From positions 2,356,001 to 2,420,000 of the forward strand of contig NZ_CP011968.1 of NCBI RefSeq assembly GCF_001077535.1: a stretch of DNA of 64,000 nt, written 5' to 3'. Made by a program: the position numbers and the translations under genes. How positions within the stretch are numbered: the stretch's first letter is position 1; every line of letters starts with the position of its first letter. The notes below the pieces were generated by a model. That model searched no databases and was not told the origin of the DNA. It was given only the letters and a program-made list of their open reading frames with translations. Of the stretch, positions 9,867-16,406 are shown piece by piece. This DNA comes from Clostridioides difficile ATCC 9689 = DSM 1296. GTDB lineage: Bacteria; Bacillota; Clostridia; Peptostreptococcales; Peptostreptococcaceae.

Positions 9867-9888
9867 TTAAATTTATATTTTTACTTAA

Positions 9889-9937
9889 AAAGTTAATAGG
9901 TATCTAATTTATTAAAATTAAGATACCTATTAACTTT
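9889..9937. terminator. Bidirectional terminator between crp/fnr and the symporter gene
   Basis: Perfect 17-bp inverted repeat (AAAGTTAATAGGTATCT and its complement) with a 15-nt loop, between convergent genes and flanked by A/T runs. Confidence 0.75.
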
Positions 9938-9954
9938 ATTAATTAAGTGTACAA

Positions 9955-11226
9955 TTAGCTTATTTTCTTTGTAGTAATTGCTGTTTTATCTATAAGCCAA
10001 TCTTTTCCTTCTACTAATCTTGAAACTAACATTGATGATACTGTATTTCCAGTTGTATTTAATATAGTATTAGGAATATCAGTTATAGTAGTTATAACTG
10101 TTAACAGTGGAATTGCCTCCACTGGAAAACCGAAGATGCTAACCACGAGCATCTCACCAATAAGTCAGCCACCTGCTACAGGAGCCATAAATACTCCAAC
10201 AACAAATACAGTTATAAATAATTGACCTATCGTTGCTGGATTTGCCATTCCACTACCTAAAATACCTGATAAAAATGCCACTTTTATTATTACTGCTAAA
10301 ACTGACCCATCTTTATGTATATTTATTCCAAGAGGTATAACTGTTTCTGATATATCATCAGGAACTCCTATATTTTTACTAGCTTCTAAATTTGATGGTA
10401 TACATGCTGAACTTGAAGAAGTAGCTAGTGCCGTTGCTATTGGTTTTATAGCATTTCTCCAGAATTGTCTAAACCCTTGTTTTCCTGCAGATAAAAAAGC
10501 ATACAGACTGTAAAATAATAAGAAATACATGGCTGCTGTTAGTGAATAAATTACAAACACCCTTACATATCCTTGAATTATTTTACTTCCAAGTTCCCCA
10601 ATTATTGTAGCTGTATAACAGCCTAGCCCTATAGGAGCATAAAGCATGAATATACTTACTACTTTTAATATTGCTTCCGTTCCTTCTGATAAAAGCTTTC
10701 TTATTGTATTTCCCCTATCTCCCATCATAGCTATTGCTGTTCCAATTAAAACTGCAAATATAACTGATTGTAGTAAATTACTACTGGAAAATAAATCTCC
10801 AAAATTTTTAACTGTAATACTTGATACTACTTGGTCTAATAACGTTCCTTTTGATTCTAAAGTTTCTGCATCTTGAGCCACCATTAAATTTTTTACACTT
10901 GATACATCTAATCCTTTAGACGGATTAAATAATAATGCAGATGTAATACCTAAAAATGCAATTACAAGTGTTGTTCCCATAAATACTATAGCTGTACCCT
11001 TCATTATTTTTCCAAATCGTTCCATATTTTTTATACTAGCAACACCTGAAGAAACACTAAGAAAAACTAATGGTACTACTATCATTAATAGAGCATTTAT
11101 GAATAAATCTCCAAATGGTTTTAGTATTGAAGCTTTTGGACCAAGTACTAATCCTACTATCGCCCCTACTATAGTACATGCTAAAAGTATAATTGATGAC
11201 TTATAATTTTTTAAAAAGTCCCTCAT
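9955..11226 (-). CDS. Dicarboxylate/amino acid:cation symporter interrupted by in-frame TGA (candidate selenoprotein)
   Basis: Sodium:dicarboxylate (DAACS/GltP fold) symporter. Codons 1-353 run from ATG 11226 to a TGA at 10167-10165. The same frame then continues for 69 sense codons to TAA at 9955, giving 423 residues with the TGA as codon 354, the normal family length. The first part has the transmembrane scaffold, the HP1 serine motif (SSSSACIPS) and the TM7 motif (NIHKDGS). The part after TGA has the rest of HP2 and TM8 with the conserved NTTGNTVSS stretch, so a protein ending at TGA would lack the transport core. The TGA is in HP2, between APVAGG and LIGEMLVVSIFGFP. A bacterial-SECIS-like stem-loop follows it. 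Either the TGA encodes selenocysteine, or this is a recent nonsense pseudogene; the intact downstream frame favours the first but does not prove it. AAAGGAAAA precedes the ATG. Confidence 0.75.
10133..10164 (-). other. Candidate bacterial SECIS element
   Basis: Directly after the in-frame TGA (10167-10165), the minus strand folds as 9 unpaired nt, an 8-bp stem GAGATGCT/AGCATCTT (7 Watson-Crick pairs and one G-T), and a 7-nt loop CGTGGTT. The loop starts 18 nt after the UGA and has G at its second position (nt 19). The published bacterial SECIS model asks for a 16-37 nt spacing, a small apical loop and a G in the first two loop bases, so all are met. The E. coli fdhF element has its loop guanines at the same distance. 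Chance folding is possible, as the element also has to encode protein. Confidence 0.6.
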
Positions 11227-11296
11227 TTATATTTTCCTTTCTAATGCTTTATATTATAAATTACCCCAAATGCTAAAAAAATTAAAGTAAATTATC

Positions 11297-11816: not shown

Positions 11817-12566
11817 TTAACTAAATACTTCTTCTTTCCTAATGATATTTAAAAATTTTGCTGTTCTTTCATTTTTAGGATTATTAAATATTTCATCAGG
11901 AGTTCCTTCTTCAGCTATTACACCATTATCCATAAATATAATTTTATCAGCAACTTCTTTTGCAAAATTTATTTCGTGAGTTACAATAAGCATCGTTATA
12001 CCTTCTTTTGCAAGAGATTTTATAACGCTTAAAACTTCTCCAACAAGTTCTGGGTCAAGTGCAGATGTAGGCTCATCAAATAATATTACATTTGGATTTA
12101 CTGCCATCGCTCTCGCTATACCTATCCTTTGTTGCTGTCCCCCAGACAACTTTGATGGATAAAAATCTTTCCTATCCAACATACCTACTTTATCTATTAA
12201 TTTTAAAGATATTTCTCTAGCTTCTTTCTTACTCTTTTTATGAACTACTATCAATGCCTCCATTACATTTTCTAATGCTGTTTTATTTTTAAATAAGTTA
12301 TAATTTTGAAACACCATAGATGTATGTTTTCTTAAATTGGTTATATCTTTTTTTGTTGCTTTTTCTACATCTACTTTTACATCACCAATCATTATCTTTC
12401 CTTTTGTAGGCTCAACTAAATAATTTAAACATCTAAGTAACGTAGATTTACCTGTTCCAGATGATCCAAGTATAGCTACTACTTCACTTTGACTTATCTC
12501 TAAATTTATACCTTTAAGAACTTCTGTCCCTTTAAAACTTTTATGTAAATTTTCTACTTTTATCAT
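11817..12566 (-). CDS. Polar amino acid ABC transporter ATP-binding protein
   Basis: Cytoplasmic ATPase of the polar amino acid uptake (PAAT, GlnQ/TcyN-like) class, 249 residues. Visible motifs are Walker [10 protein letters not shown] (about residues 34-42), signature LSGGQQQR, Walker [13 protein letters not shown], and the H-loop histidine in VTHEI. It is the only ATPase beside two permease genes and two binding-protein genes, so it probably energises both. AAAGGTGG precedes the ATG. It is the last gene of the operon. Confidence 0.93.
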
Positions 12567-12674: not shown

Positions 12675-13850
12675 CTATAGTTGACATAAATAATCTACTG
12701 TAAGTTGTGAAAATAATGAAGGTGCTATACTAAGACATTTTTCATCTATATTAAACTTGTTACTATGCAATCTGTAATTTATATTTTTTTCTTTATCTCC
12801 TACACCTATATACATAAATAAACCAGGTTTTTCTTTCATATAAATAGCAAAATCCTCACCTGTCATTGCAGGAAAATCAATTATTTCAACATTTTCAGCT
12901 CCAAGTATTTTGCAAGCACTTTCTCTTCCTATCTCTATCATGTTTTTGTCATTTATAACAGCATCTCCTCCTGTACTCTTTTCAAATTTGCAATCTGCTC
13001 CATGTGCTTTACATACATTTTTTACTATATATTCTAGAATTTTACTTACTTCAATTACTTGTTCCTTGCTTATCGCTCTAATAGTCCCTTGAAGTGTACA
13101 TACATCTGGTATTATATTTTTAGAAACACCAGAATTAAAAGAACAAACAGACACTACTACAGGTACAACTGGGTCAATTTTTCTTGAAACTATCTGTTGA
13201 ATGGATGAATATACTGCATTTCCAACTGCAATTGGGTCTATACAATTATGAGGCTCTGCTCCATGCCCACCCTTGCCAATTATTGTTATTTCAAAAGTAT
13301 TAGTCGCTGCCATAGCACAATTTCTAGCGATTCCAATTTTTCCTGACTCAATAGTTGGCCAACAATGACCAGTCGCTAATGCATCCACACCTTCAAGTAC
13401 ATTTTCTTTAATTACAATATCAGAACCACCTTTTTCTTCGCCAGGTTGAAATAGTAATTTTACATTTCCATTCAATTCTTCTTTTATGTCATTTAAAATC
13501 ATTGCTGTTCCTAACAACCATGAAACATGTGCATCATGCCCACAAGCATGCATATTATCATTTATTGATTTAAATTCTAAATCATTTTCCTCTTTGATTG
13601 GAAGAGCATCCATATCCGCTCTGAGTAATATAGTTTTTCCACCATTATTTTTTCCTTTTATAGTAGCTAATACTCCTGTACCAGCAATATTTATGTATTC
13701 TATATTAAGTTTATTTAGCTCTTCTTTTATAAGTTTAGATGTTTTATATTCTTTAAATGCTAACTCTGGATTACTGTGTATCTGTCGTCTTATTTTTATA
13801 ATTTTTTCTCTATTTTTTAGTGCAATGGATTTTATTTTAGTTTCAATCAT
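12675..13850 (-). CDS. M20-family amidohydrolase (N-acyl amino acid hydrolase)
   Basis: Metal-dependent amidohydrolase of about 391 residues, in the group that removes acyl groups from amino acids or hydrolyses hippurate-like substrates. Metal-site residues appear in HACGHDAH, in the acidic pair of PGEEKGG, in ATGHCWP and in the late histidine of RLHSNKF. The frame can begin at 13865, but GGAGG sits 8 nt before the ATG at 13850. Location between the binding protein and the ATPase suggests that it processes an imported N-acylated or conjugated amino acid, as with the cysteine-conjugate uptake operons of Bacillus; the substrate is inferred only. Confidence 0.88.
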   Translation of the reverse strand: MIETKIKSIALKNREKIIKIRRQIHSNPELAFKEYKTSKLIKEELNKLNIEYINIAGTGVLATIKGKNNGGKTILLRADMDALPIKEENDLEFKSINDNMHACGHDAHVSWLLGTAMILNDIKEELNGNVKLLFQPGEEKGGSDIVIKENVLEGVDALATGHCWPTIESGKIGIARNCAMAATNTFEITIIGKGGHGAEPHNCIDPIAVGNAVYSSIQQIVSRKIDPVVPVVVSVCSFNSGVSKNIIPDVCTLQGTIRAISKEQVIEVSKILEYIVKNVCKAHGADCKFEKSTGGDAVINDKNMIEIGRESACKILGAENVEIIDFPAMTGEDFAIYMKEKPGLFMYIGVGDKEKNINYRLHSNKFNIDEKCLSIAPSLFSQLTVDYLCQL

Positions 13851-13982
13851 TTGCAATACCTCCATAACTCATTTTGATTTATAAAGACTAATCTAAATAC
13901 ATTGTAATACACAGATAACTATAGATAAATTTAGTATACTTATCTATAGTTATCACAGTTTTACATTTTAATTTTAAAGTAT

Positions 13983-14780
13983 TTATTTTTGTATATCAGC
14001 ACTTACATCCATTCCAAACCATTTTTCAGATATTTTTTTCACTGTTCCATCTGCAAGCATTTCTTCTATTGCTTTGTTTACATCTTCTTTTATCGTTTTA
14101 GATTTATCATCGTTTTTCTTAAAGAAGTATGCTATATTAGTAGCTGATAATTTTTTATCTAATACTCTTACTTTCATATTAGCTTTTTTAGCGTCTCCCA
14201 CAATAGTAAGCTCTGCATCAATCCATGCACTAACTCTTCCCAAATCTAAATCTTGAAGACCACTAGTTCCATCACCGTAAACCTTTTCTTGAAACAAATT
14301 ATCTTTATTAACACTAGTTGCAACCTGTTGACCTTGAGAACCTTCTGAAACTGCTACAACTTTTCCCTTTAAATCTTCAAGCTTATTAATTTCGTTATTT
14401 CCATCTTTTACAGCTATACACACAGAATCAGAACCATAAGGTATAGAAGCATCGTATTTTTCTAATCTTTCTTTAGACATTCCAAAGAAGTTGGCTGCCA
14501 CATCAACTTTACCAGAATCTAACATACCAAATATAGAACTAAAACCTGTTGGTTCCATTTTTATCTTATATCCACTTCTTTTACCAATCTCTTTCCACAT
14601 GTCAACTTCAAAACCCTTATGCTCACCATTATCAACATAAGAATATGGGTCAGCTGAATTAGATGAAGCTACAGTTATAACTTTTTCATTCTTTACTTCC
14701 TCTTTTTTTGAACAACCAGTAATTACAAACGTTAACGATAAAACTGCCACTAAACATTTTATAATATTTCTTTTTATCAT
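13983..14780 (-). CDS. Amino acid ABC transporter substrate-binding lipoprotein (first copy)
   Basis: Extracellular solute-binding protein of family 3 anchored by a lipid. The start with AGGAG 7 nt upstream is the ATG at 14780, giving a signal peptide that ends in the lipobox VITGC. After the cleavage site are a lysine/glutamate-rich linker and the two-lobe domain typical of polar amino acid binding proteins (YSYVDNGEHKGFEVDMWKEI, then FGMLDSGKVDVAANFFGMS). Length 265 residues. Cystine or a related sulfur amino acid is plausible by similarity to TcyJ/K-type proteins, but the ligand cannot be fixed from sequence alone. Confidence 0.88.
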   Translation of the reverse strand: MIKRNIIKCLVAVLSLTFVITGCSKKEEVKNEKVITVASSNSADPYSYVDNGEHKGFEVDMWKEIGKRSGYKIKMEPTGFSSIFGMLDSGKVDVAANFFGMSKERLEKYDASIPYGSDSVCIAVKDGNNEINKLEDLKGKVVAVSEGSQGQQVATSVNKDNLFQEKVYGDGTSGLQDLDLGRVSAWIDAELTIVGDAKKANMKVRVLDKKLSATNIAYFFKKNDDKSKTIKEDVNKAIEEMLADGTVKKISEKWFGMDVSADIQK

Positions 14781-14839
14781 ATCTCTTCTCCTCACACCAT
14801 TTTTTATATAAAAATACTTTTATGTATTTTCTTAATAAC

Positions 14840-15502
14840 TTAATAATTGCTTATTTTCTTTTCTAATTTTTTTTGCCCCCAACCTAAAGGAGTTATTATA
14901 CACCAGTAAATTACCATAACTGCTCCATACACTTCAAAAAACTTAAAACTCAACGCTCCTTGTGATTTGGCAGCACCCATTATATCATTTACTCCAACAA
15001 CAAAAGCTACAGAAGACCCTTTAATTAAATCTATAAAATTATTGAATAATGATGGCAGTGCAACTCTTACGGCCTGTGGTATCACTATCCTTTTCATTGT
15101 TTGTAAATTTGTTAATCCCATTGCATATGCTGCTTCTATCTGACCTGTATCAATTGAAAGTATAGATGCCCTTATCGTTTCAGACATATAAGCTCCCATA
15201 TTTAAACTAAGTACTATAGATGTTGCAAATACTGGGTCCATATTTTTAACAAAATCACTCATATATGCTAGTCCAAAATATAAAAAGAATAACTGTGGCA
15301 TAAGAGGTGTACCTCTAAAAATAGATACATATACTTTACATATTTGATTCAATACTTTCACTTTGTAATAAGATGATAACGCTACTATTGTACCTATAAT
15401 TAATGAAAATACTAATGAACTTATTGCCAAAATCACAGTTACATTGAACGATTTCATTATTGTTGGAAATAATTCTAAAAAATATTTCATATTAAAAGCC
15501 AT
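14840..15502 (-). CDS. Amino acid ABC transporter permease (first copy)
   Basis: Integral membrane permease of the His/Glu/Gln/Arg/opine class, 220 residues, with about five transmembrane helices. It shows the cytoplasmic coupling motif EAAYAMGLTNLQTMKRIVIPQA that docks on the ATPase. GGGGG precedes the ATG by 9 nt. The gene is followed after 59 nt by its binding-protein gene. It is about as long as, and clearly homologous to, the second permease at 15738..16406. Confidence 0.92.
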   Translation of the reverse strand: MAFNMKYFLELFPTIMKSFNVTVILAISSLVFSLIIGTIVALSSYYKVKVLNQICKVYVSIFRGTPLMPQLFFLYFGLAYMSDFVKNMDPVFATSIVLSLNMGAYMSETIRASILSIDTGQIEAAYAMGLTNLQTMKRIVIPQAVRVALPSLFNNFIDLIKGSSVAFVVGVNDIMGAAKSQGALSFKFFEVYGAVMVIYWCIITPLGWGQKKLEKKISNY

Positions 15503-15737: not shown

Positions 15738-16406
15738 CTAATATGCTCTTCTTATTCTTTTTTCAACTTTGCTTTGTATATTACTCAATATTATAGATAC
15801 TGCCCAGTAAATTAATATCGTTATCATATATATCTCAAAATATTTAAAACTTGAAGCAGCCTCTACTTGAGCTACTCCCATTAAATCTTGTATTCCTATA
15901 GTTAAACCTAAAGAAGAACCTTTAATTATGTCCAGTGTACAGCTTACAATAGGAGGTACTGCAGATGTAGCTGCTTGAGGTAGAATTATTTTAACCATTG
16001 ACTGATATTTACTTAACCCAAAAGCATAACATGCTTCCTGTTGTCCTTTATCAACACTCTCAATAGATGCTCGTATAATTTCAGCCATATATGCAGATGA
16101 ATTTACACCTAAACAAATTACTATTGCTAAATAAGGTGAACAATCTTTCATAAAAGAAAATATCATTGGAAATCCAAAATAAAAGAAAAATATTTGAATT
16201 AAAAGTGGTGTTCCTCTAAAGAATGAAACATACACTCTTGTTATGTATTGTAAAACTTTTGATTTTGTCTGTGTGAAAAAGGCAAGTATTACACCTAATA
16301 ATATTGATAAAAAAAATGCAACAATAGATATTAGTATTGTTATTCCCAATGCTTTAATCAAAAATGGAAATATACTTAGACAAAATTCAAAATTAAAATT
16401 ACTCAT
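15738..16406 (-). CDS. Amino acid ABC transporter permease (second copy)
   Basis: Paralogue of the first permease, 222 residues, with the same fold and the coupling motif EACYAFGLSKYQSMVKIILP. Its start overlaps the end of the second binding protein by 8 nt, showing translational coupling. The 235-nt gap to the next permease is long for an operon and could hold an internal promoter, although none is convincing. Confidence 0.92.
   Translation of the reverse strand: MSNFNFEFCLSIFPFLIKALGITILISIVAFFLSILLGVILAFFTQTKSKVLQYITRVYVSFFRGTPLLIQIFFFYFGFPMIFSFMKDCSPYLAIVICLGVNSSAYMAEIIRASIESVDKGQQEACYAFGLSKYQSMVKIILPQAATSAVPPIVSCTLDIIKGSSLGLTIGIQDLMGVAQVEAASSFKYFEIYMITILIYWAVSIILSNIQSKVEKRIRRAY

Follow-up and report, generated by a model that had tools for sequence, protein, structure and literature searches.

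The closest described relatives of the protein reported here are elevator-type transporters of the SDF family, and GltPh is the reference for its residues. D405 of GltPh marks a position with a role in Na+-coupled dicarboxylate transporters, and the amide of Gly359 presumably itself contacts the substrate. R397 binds the side-chain carboxylate, the NMD motif (310-312) holds sodium, and the tip of hairpin HP2 adjoins the aspartate and Na2 sites, as described in PMC7682989. V355 and A358 make backbone contacts (PMC8064580). A second point of reference is the bacterial selenocysteine insertion sequence (SECIS). The rules given in PMC13188914 are a loop of 3-9 nt, a stem of 4-16 bp, a distance of 16-37 nt from the UGA and an energy of -7.5 kcal/mol or lower, with a G within the first two loop positions that is often followed by G or U.

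The window, the whole stretch of DNA analysed here, comprises 64,000 nt of a Clostridioides difficile genome. On its minus strand, an SDF-family (PF00375) transporter gene (9955-11226) has 423 sense codons when an in-frame TGA is read, and ends with a TAA (9957-9955). The TGA is codon 354 (10167-10165), the sole stop inside the frame 11226-9955 and the proposed selenocysteine codon. Re-reading of the sequence confirmed the first-pass annotation on this point: a single TGA interrupts a 423-codon symporter frame, with 69 open codons 3' of it. This conserved tail (9958-10164) encodes the rest of HP2 and TM8 and includes D383, N386, T387, N390, and N394. The PF00375 profile matches the protein over its full length at 281.9 bits (cut-off 27.9), and a search with it found two further SDF genes in the same genome, both without stops. 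Among the 38 open reading frames of at least 200 codons in the window, 22 end in TAA, 13 in TAG, and 3 in TGA, one of these being TGA-354. A putative ribosome-binding site, AAGGA (11235-11239, minus), was read from the sequence upstream of the ATG. Just 3' of the full-length TAA lies a terminator-like 31-nt inverted repeat, 81% complementary (9880-9946), between the symporter gene and the convergent gene for a Crp-like regulator. The segment 9895-9957 at this repeat has a folding z of -4.3, and the repeat is absent from the list given by a consensus terminator scan. It is perhaps a two-way terminator.

The TGA is conserved across two genera. The read-through protein matches 16 of 71 genomes of the family at 1e-60, and in 8 of the 16 the best match contains one TGA and no other stop. 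These are 4 of the 8 genomes of the window's genus (G000, G005, G006, G008) and 4 of the 6 genomes of a second genus (G025, G026, G028, G029); named copies are those of C. difficile 173070, HC132, and CD160, Paraclostridium benzoelyticum, and [Eubacterium] tenue. Protein identity is 95-96% inside the window's genus and about 71% to the second. All eight TGAs align on codon 354, and residues 355-358 are identical in all eight proteins. The first-pass annotation had looked to conservation of the TGA across strains and relatives for support, and the same codon is indeed present in 8 genomes. It had named extra downstream stops and sense codons in other strains as signs against its reading. The eight orthologues have no extra stop, and none of the genus's 8 genomes has a sense codon at 354. 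The gene is instead deleted, wholly or partly, from four of them. G004 retains the 3' part beside conserved neighbors, G007 and G009 lack the gene between kept flanks, and G010 gives a match on one flank only. A remnant of the gene was seen in L037 (2960-3141).

Broader samples were also searched. At the order level (393 genomes), no additional TGA-bearing match occurs among the matches listed, which reach down to near 2e-34. At the class level (391 genomes, partly overlapping the order-level sample), 23 genomes match at 1e-50, and the TGA is at the site only in the window's own genome. Two TGA-bearing class-level sequences, L079 and L081, were rejected as independent TGA sites: their aligned stretch has no stop, so their TGA lies at the gene end. 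Four stretches of viral contigs match a pattern, and none is a relative of the transporter. In these searches, the TGA-354 form occurs in two genera only, probably with one origin.

The sequence behind the TGA evolves as coding sequence under constraint. For the 60 codons 3' of the TGA, observed residue changes were compared with 20,000 neutral draws. Between genera (two pairs), 35-37 of 180 bases differ and 5-6 of 60 residues changed against 23-24 expected, with none of the 20,000 draws as low. Inside the second genus (two pairs), 1 of 60 residues changed against 9-12 expected, again with no draw as low in either pair. Inside the window's genus the signal is weak, with 2 of 60 residues changed against 4.5-5.9 expected (700 and 90 of 20,000 draws). 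Nonsynonymous divergence (NG86 dN) between genera falls from 0.24 before the TGA to 0.10-0.11 after it, and inside the second genus from 0.07-0.09 to 0.01-0.02. Each of the five pairs compared between genera or inside the second genus has a lower dN after the TGA; inside the window's genus, dN is slightly higher there in two of three pairs. Purifying selection on the tail indicates that the tail is translated.

Downstream of the TGA lies a SECIS-like hairpin (10133-10155, minus). Reading 3' from the TGA, the sequence is, in order, CTTATTGGT GAGATGCT CGTGGTT AGCATCTT. After nine nucleotides comes a stem of 8 pairs, 10155-10148 with 10140-10133, closing a loop of 7 nt (10147-10141, CGUGGUU) that starts 18 nt after the TGA, with a G at nt 19. 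Stem, loop, and G are present exactly as first claimed. The claimed fit to the bacterial SECIS model also holds in the window: the loop has 7 nt, the stem 8 bp, the G is at loop position 2 (C-G-U), the spacing from the UGA is 17 nt, and the 42-nt core folds at -9.3 kcal/mol. The shape is found in all eight orthologues, with a CGUGGU(U/A) loop and a spacing of 17 nt; in two of them the bare 42-nt core is weaker than -7.5 kcal/mol (L008, -6.7; L009, -7.3). Several relatives with Gly at the site fold the same 42 nt as strongly or more so, in the wrong shape (L019, -9.1; L030, -12.8; L033, -10.7; L035 and L036, -9.2). Conservation and covariance of the hairpin, proposed earlier as a check, came out divided. 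Pairing is kept, with standard pairs in 56 of 56 cells over 7 distinct rows; in the same rows no pair changed on both sides, and two pairs vary one-sidedly from G-C to G-U.

The codons that spell the hairpin are GAG ATG CTC GTG GTT AGC ATC TTC. CTC is used for 0.6% of Leu, and GTG (9%), ATC (4%), AGC (5%), and TTC (11%) are likewise infrequent for their amino acids. GAG, CTC, and GTG are invariant in the eight orthologues, and AGC, ATC, and TTC are each kept in seven; the changes are GTT/GTA, where the loop ends, and AGC/AGT, ATC/ATT, and TTC/TTT, each seen in a single genome. Given the amino acids, none of 15,225 8-codon windows (overlapping, from the 38 ORFs of at least 200 codons) is as rare as the hairpin's eight codons, and 200,000 synonymous draws gave no equally rare set. 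A stem of at least 8 pairs with -9.3 kcal/mol and correct spacing arose in 62 of 20,000 synonymous rewrites and at 0 of 2,154 in-frame background sites. At the looser published line of -7.5, the counts are 751 and 30. Folding energy against dinucleotide shuffles is unremarkable (z of -1.9 in the window; -1.0, -0.55, and -0.25 in three relatives). Compared with the remaining codons of the gene, those of the hairpin show no significant excess of synonymous conservation (Fisher p 0.06-0.22 in five pairs; p 0.31 for all eight). The rare codons are the telling feature of the hairpin: the codon-rarity test sets it apart and the synonymous-identity tests do not. A search with Rfam RF00031 gave no match anywhere, the controls included, and all 6 matches from an Rfam scan of the gene fell short of the gathering score (lowest E 0.2).

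The machinery for selenocysteine insertion is present. SelB scores above cut-off in all 18 genomes searched for it, and all 9 searched for tRNA-Sec have a match of 69-70 bits (gathering score 47). Since some genomes in each set have no symporter, the presence of these genes does not discriminate. In the window's genome selA, selB, and a Sec-type selD lie side by side (selA and selD were named from translations, selB from a profile search). ARAGORN found no tRNA in five stretches, the tRNA-Sec genes lying outside these. The same kind of search that finds the transporter recovers known selenoprotein genes of this genome (GrdA, PrdB, GrdB-like) as one-TGA frames. As a yardstick, SelD has a GGU-loop hairpin at -10.7. 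GrdB, identified by its motif and its position next to grdA, satisfies this SECIS rule, and GrdA and PrdB fail it, so this simple hairpin rule misses some true cases. A second GrdB-like one-TGA frame (G000:C1:1902277-1902906) lies apart from the grdA-adjacent one; PMC1794560 tabulates two GrdB for C. difficile.

In an alignment with GltPh (6wzb), residue 354 falls on Gly359, at the tip of HP2, the hairpin that gates the substrate. R397, N310, M311, and D405 of GltPh are replaced by N386, H304, K305, and N394, and D394, T398, and N401 are retained as D383, T387, and N390. Given these four replacements, sodium-coupled dicarboxylate transporter is an unsafe name. The earlier label of Na+/dicarboxylate-type symporter therefore stands for membership of the SDF family (PF00375) and falls for the coupling and substrate, R397, N310, and M311 being Asn, His, and Lys. 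All Foldseek matches listed (best 50 of 126, E <= 0.001) belong to the SDF family by their titles. The AlphaFold model has a mean pLDDT of 74, with HP2-tip residues 348-353 below 50, too low to judge the distance between residues 270 and 354.

We aligned 54 homologs after removing duplicates and a fragment (L003, L024-L028, and L037). At site 354, the non-Sec relatives have Gly in 44 of 46 and Ala in two distant paralogs, with no Cys. The first-pass annotation had expected Cys in close relatives at this codon; Gly is found there, and Cys is elsewhere in the pocket. A selenoprotein site with no Cys homolog is unusual. Such a homolog is a usual criterion and not a required one, and GrdA likewise has none (PMC1794560). 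All 30 non-Sec proteins with K305 combine Cys270 with Gly354, and all eight Sec proteins combine Ser270 with the predicted Sec354, a pattern recognized after looking and among related sequences, so that the 30 do not represent 30 independent events. Fifteen M305 proteins have Gln, Gly, or Arg at 270, and one homolog has Leu at 305. Position 270 corresponds to GltPh R276 at the tip of HP1, facing HP2. Cys275, near the HP1 tip, occurs in all eight Sec proteins and also in some Gly relatives. In the tree, the K305 group encloses the Sec clade (support 1.0), which has a long stem (0.44); support for the nearest sister of the Sec clade is weak (0.675), and the next enclosing clade, of 30 tips, has 0.935. 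Since the Sec clade is nested in the K305 group, Gly354/Cys270 is likely the ancestral state.

Several readings of the TGA have to be weighed. A lone stop in one frame could be a nonsense mutation in a dying symporter, in line with the whole or partial absence of the gene from half of the genus's 8 genomes and the remnant in L037. The same TGA nevertheless recurs in two genera whose proteins are 71% identical, none of the eight genomes has gained a second stop, and the tail is under selection, so that a pseudogene is hardly credible. Conservation and purifying selection do not by themselves name the residue inserted at codon 354, and readthrough of the UGA with an ordinary residue such as Trp, or some other selenium-free recoding, would also yield a full-length product. 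The genomes have a Sec system, however, and the hairpin conforms to the rules for a bacterial SECIS; for plain readthrough, a hairpin with a G-U loop at a spacing of 17 nt would not be needed. We consider this reading very unlikely.

Selection on the tail is equally predicted if the TGA is a true stop and translation restarts at the ATG at 10152-10150, producing a C-terminal fragment of 65 residues that assembles with the fragment of 353 residues. A 65-residue ORF does begin five codons after the TGA. Such a split would break HP2 at the tip of the hairpin, and residues 355-358, identical in all eight orthologs, would be lost. The sole purine-rich stretch upstream of this ATG, GGTGAG, abuts the start codon, which leaves too little spacing for a typical ribosome-binding site. 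TGA stops are also rare in the window (3 of 38, counting TGA-354), yet all eight orthologs have TGA here, and the SECIS spacing, the rare stem codons, and the loss of Cys270 would be left unexplained. A split protein is thus very improbable indeed. Selenocysteine insertion is supported by the conserved TGA, the selected tail, the kept hairpin, and the Sec machinery, in line with the first proposal for this codon. Judged from the sequence, UGA-354 of this SDF-family elevator-type transporter is very probably decoded as Sec, giving a full-length selenoprotein. SelB and tRNA-Sec would decode the UGA, aided by the downstream hairpin, and selenium would be inserted at residue 354.

For the role of the residue, we give less weight to two further steps. 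Sec354, at the HP2 tip in the position of GltPh Gly359, would line the substrate pocket, and it may take over the job of Cys270 on the facing hairpin of the non-Sec relatives. Sec354 would then probably bind or exchange with a sulfur-bearing or cystine- or diaminopimelate-like amino acid, or act as a redox lock on the gate. A chalcogen acting on substrate or gate is our best guess. A more specific proposal, which we hold tentatively and would not call probable, is selenium chemistry in the elevator gate, in which the reactive chalcogen has moved from an HP1 Cys to an HP2 Sec and meets the substrate directly. The selenium could exchange with a disulfide, for example that of cystine, through a selenylsulfide, or alternatively it could form a redox-operated lock, perhaps with Cys275. 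If this were true, transport would be coupled to thiol redox, and Sec would have evolved where Gly stood before, not by the Cys-to-Sec route used by present finders. The swap of Cys270 for Sec354 offers a direct test of what the chalcogen does in the substrate pocket.

The neighboring genes give hints about the substrate. In the window, the symporter gene lies downstream of an ABC operon with an M20 amidohydrolase, and G006 has the same neighbors. All genes of this operon are on the minus strand: an ABC transporter ATPase (11817-12566; best NCBIfam match L-cystine TcyN), an M20-family amidohydrolase (12675-13865), a solute-binding protein (13983-14795; best match cystine-binding), and two ABC permeases (14840-15502 and 15738-16406; best match cystine permease), with the three best matches below cut-off. 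CD2177-CD2174 are named as a cystine ABC transporter in PMC3510511, and CD2172-CD2177 are tenfold up in biofilm (PMC6143707). The hcp and Fe-S genes beyond the regulator are CD630_21680 and CD630_21690 (PMC6311696). From the CD numbers of these neighbors, the symporter gene should be CD2171 of strain 630, a number inferred from its place. A literature search for CD2171 (with difficile) and for CD630_21710 found no paper.

In the second genus, represented by two genomes (G026 and G029), the neighbors differ, so the cystine link is not conserved. The symporter gene stands behind dnaJ in G029, and in G026 an SDF-like gene stands between (gene content was read in L055, L057, L058, and L060). This divergent gene (L058, 9915-11105), of 396 codons and SDF-like by eye, directly precedes the Sec symporter and matches no NCBIfam model at 1e-10. 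Among the non-Sec K305 relatives, murE, encoding the diaminopimelate-adding ligase, adjoins the gene in 4 of 4 scanned flanks (L014, L015, L073, and L040), which had been chosen for their murE-like appearance. By eye, murE neighbors were also seen in further flanks (from the set L013-L017, L040, L073, and L078), an AraC-type regulator beside L072, and an amino-acid racemase beside L013. The murE and racemase neighbors of the Cys270/K305 relatives hint at uptake of diaminopimelate or D-amino acids. A cystine- or diaminopimelate-like substrate is therefore a guess from the neighborhood.

The first-pass annotation knew of no selenoprotein in this transporter family. A 2026 inventory lists 119 prokaryotic selenoprotein families or subfamilies (PMC13188914, Table 1), and an SDF transporter is not among them; neither "symporter" nor "dicarboxylate" occurs in the main text of that paper. 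Word searches in the accessible text of PMC1794560, PMC5029168, PMC12013277, and PMC1242214 found neither word, and "symporter" is likewise absent from that of PMC10484987 and PMC11448449. No NCBIfam 20.0 model scores above its cut-off for the Sec transporter. An earlier unnoticed annotation, for example in a RefSeq record, a supplement, or a subscription paper, is possible. On this comparison, the predicted selenoprotein belongs to a new family, and its Sec site is unusual in deriving from Gly. Selenoproteins without Cys homologs are a limit of deep-Sep, according to its authors (PMC12013277). Because relatives have Gly at the site, tools built on Sec/Cys pairs would miss the transporter, and the same blind spot may hide further selenoproteins. 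If selenium is inserted, the structurally best-studied family of elevator-type amino-acid transporters joins the selenoproteins, and C. difficile and its kin have a selenium-dependent transporter that the plain code reads as truncated.

Compared with known selenoproteins, the transporter gene resembles those for SelD, GrdA, GrdB, and PrdB of C. difficile in having one in-frame TGA and the same genomic machinery. The hairpins of SelD and GrdB have GGU loops, and unlike the SDF protein, none of the four is a transporter. Sec-containing transport proteins in PMC13188914 are SaoB, SaoX, SaoP, YeeE/YedE, the SO_0444 Cu/Zn efflux protein, a mercuric transport protein, and an E1-E2 ATPase. These are known or predicted, and none of those given there is an SDF protein or another amino-acid symporter. 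Their motifs are of the UxxC, CU, and UxC type, whereas the SDF case would place Sec where relatives have Gly. Compared with known transporters, the protein shares the full-length PF00375 match and the fold of the SDF (DAACS) elevator transporters, among them GltPh, GltTk, the EAATs, ASCT2, and DctA, and differs from GltPh in the predicted Sec at the Gly359 position. Nearest to it is the K305/Cys270 subgroup of Clostridia and Bacteroidales (32-52% identical), which has the HKDG motif and the HP2 layout in common with it. That subgroup has Gly354 with Cys270, and the Sec clade has Ser270 with what we predict to be Sec354.
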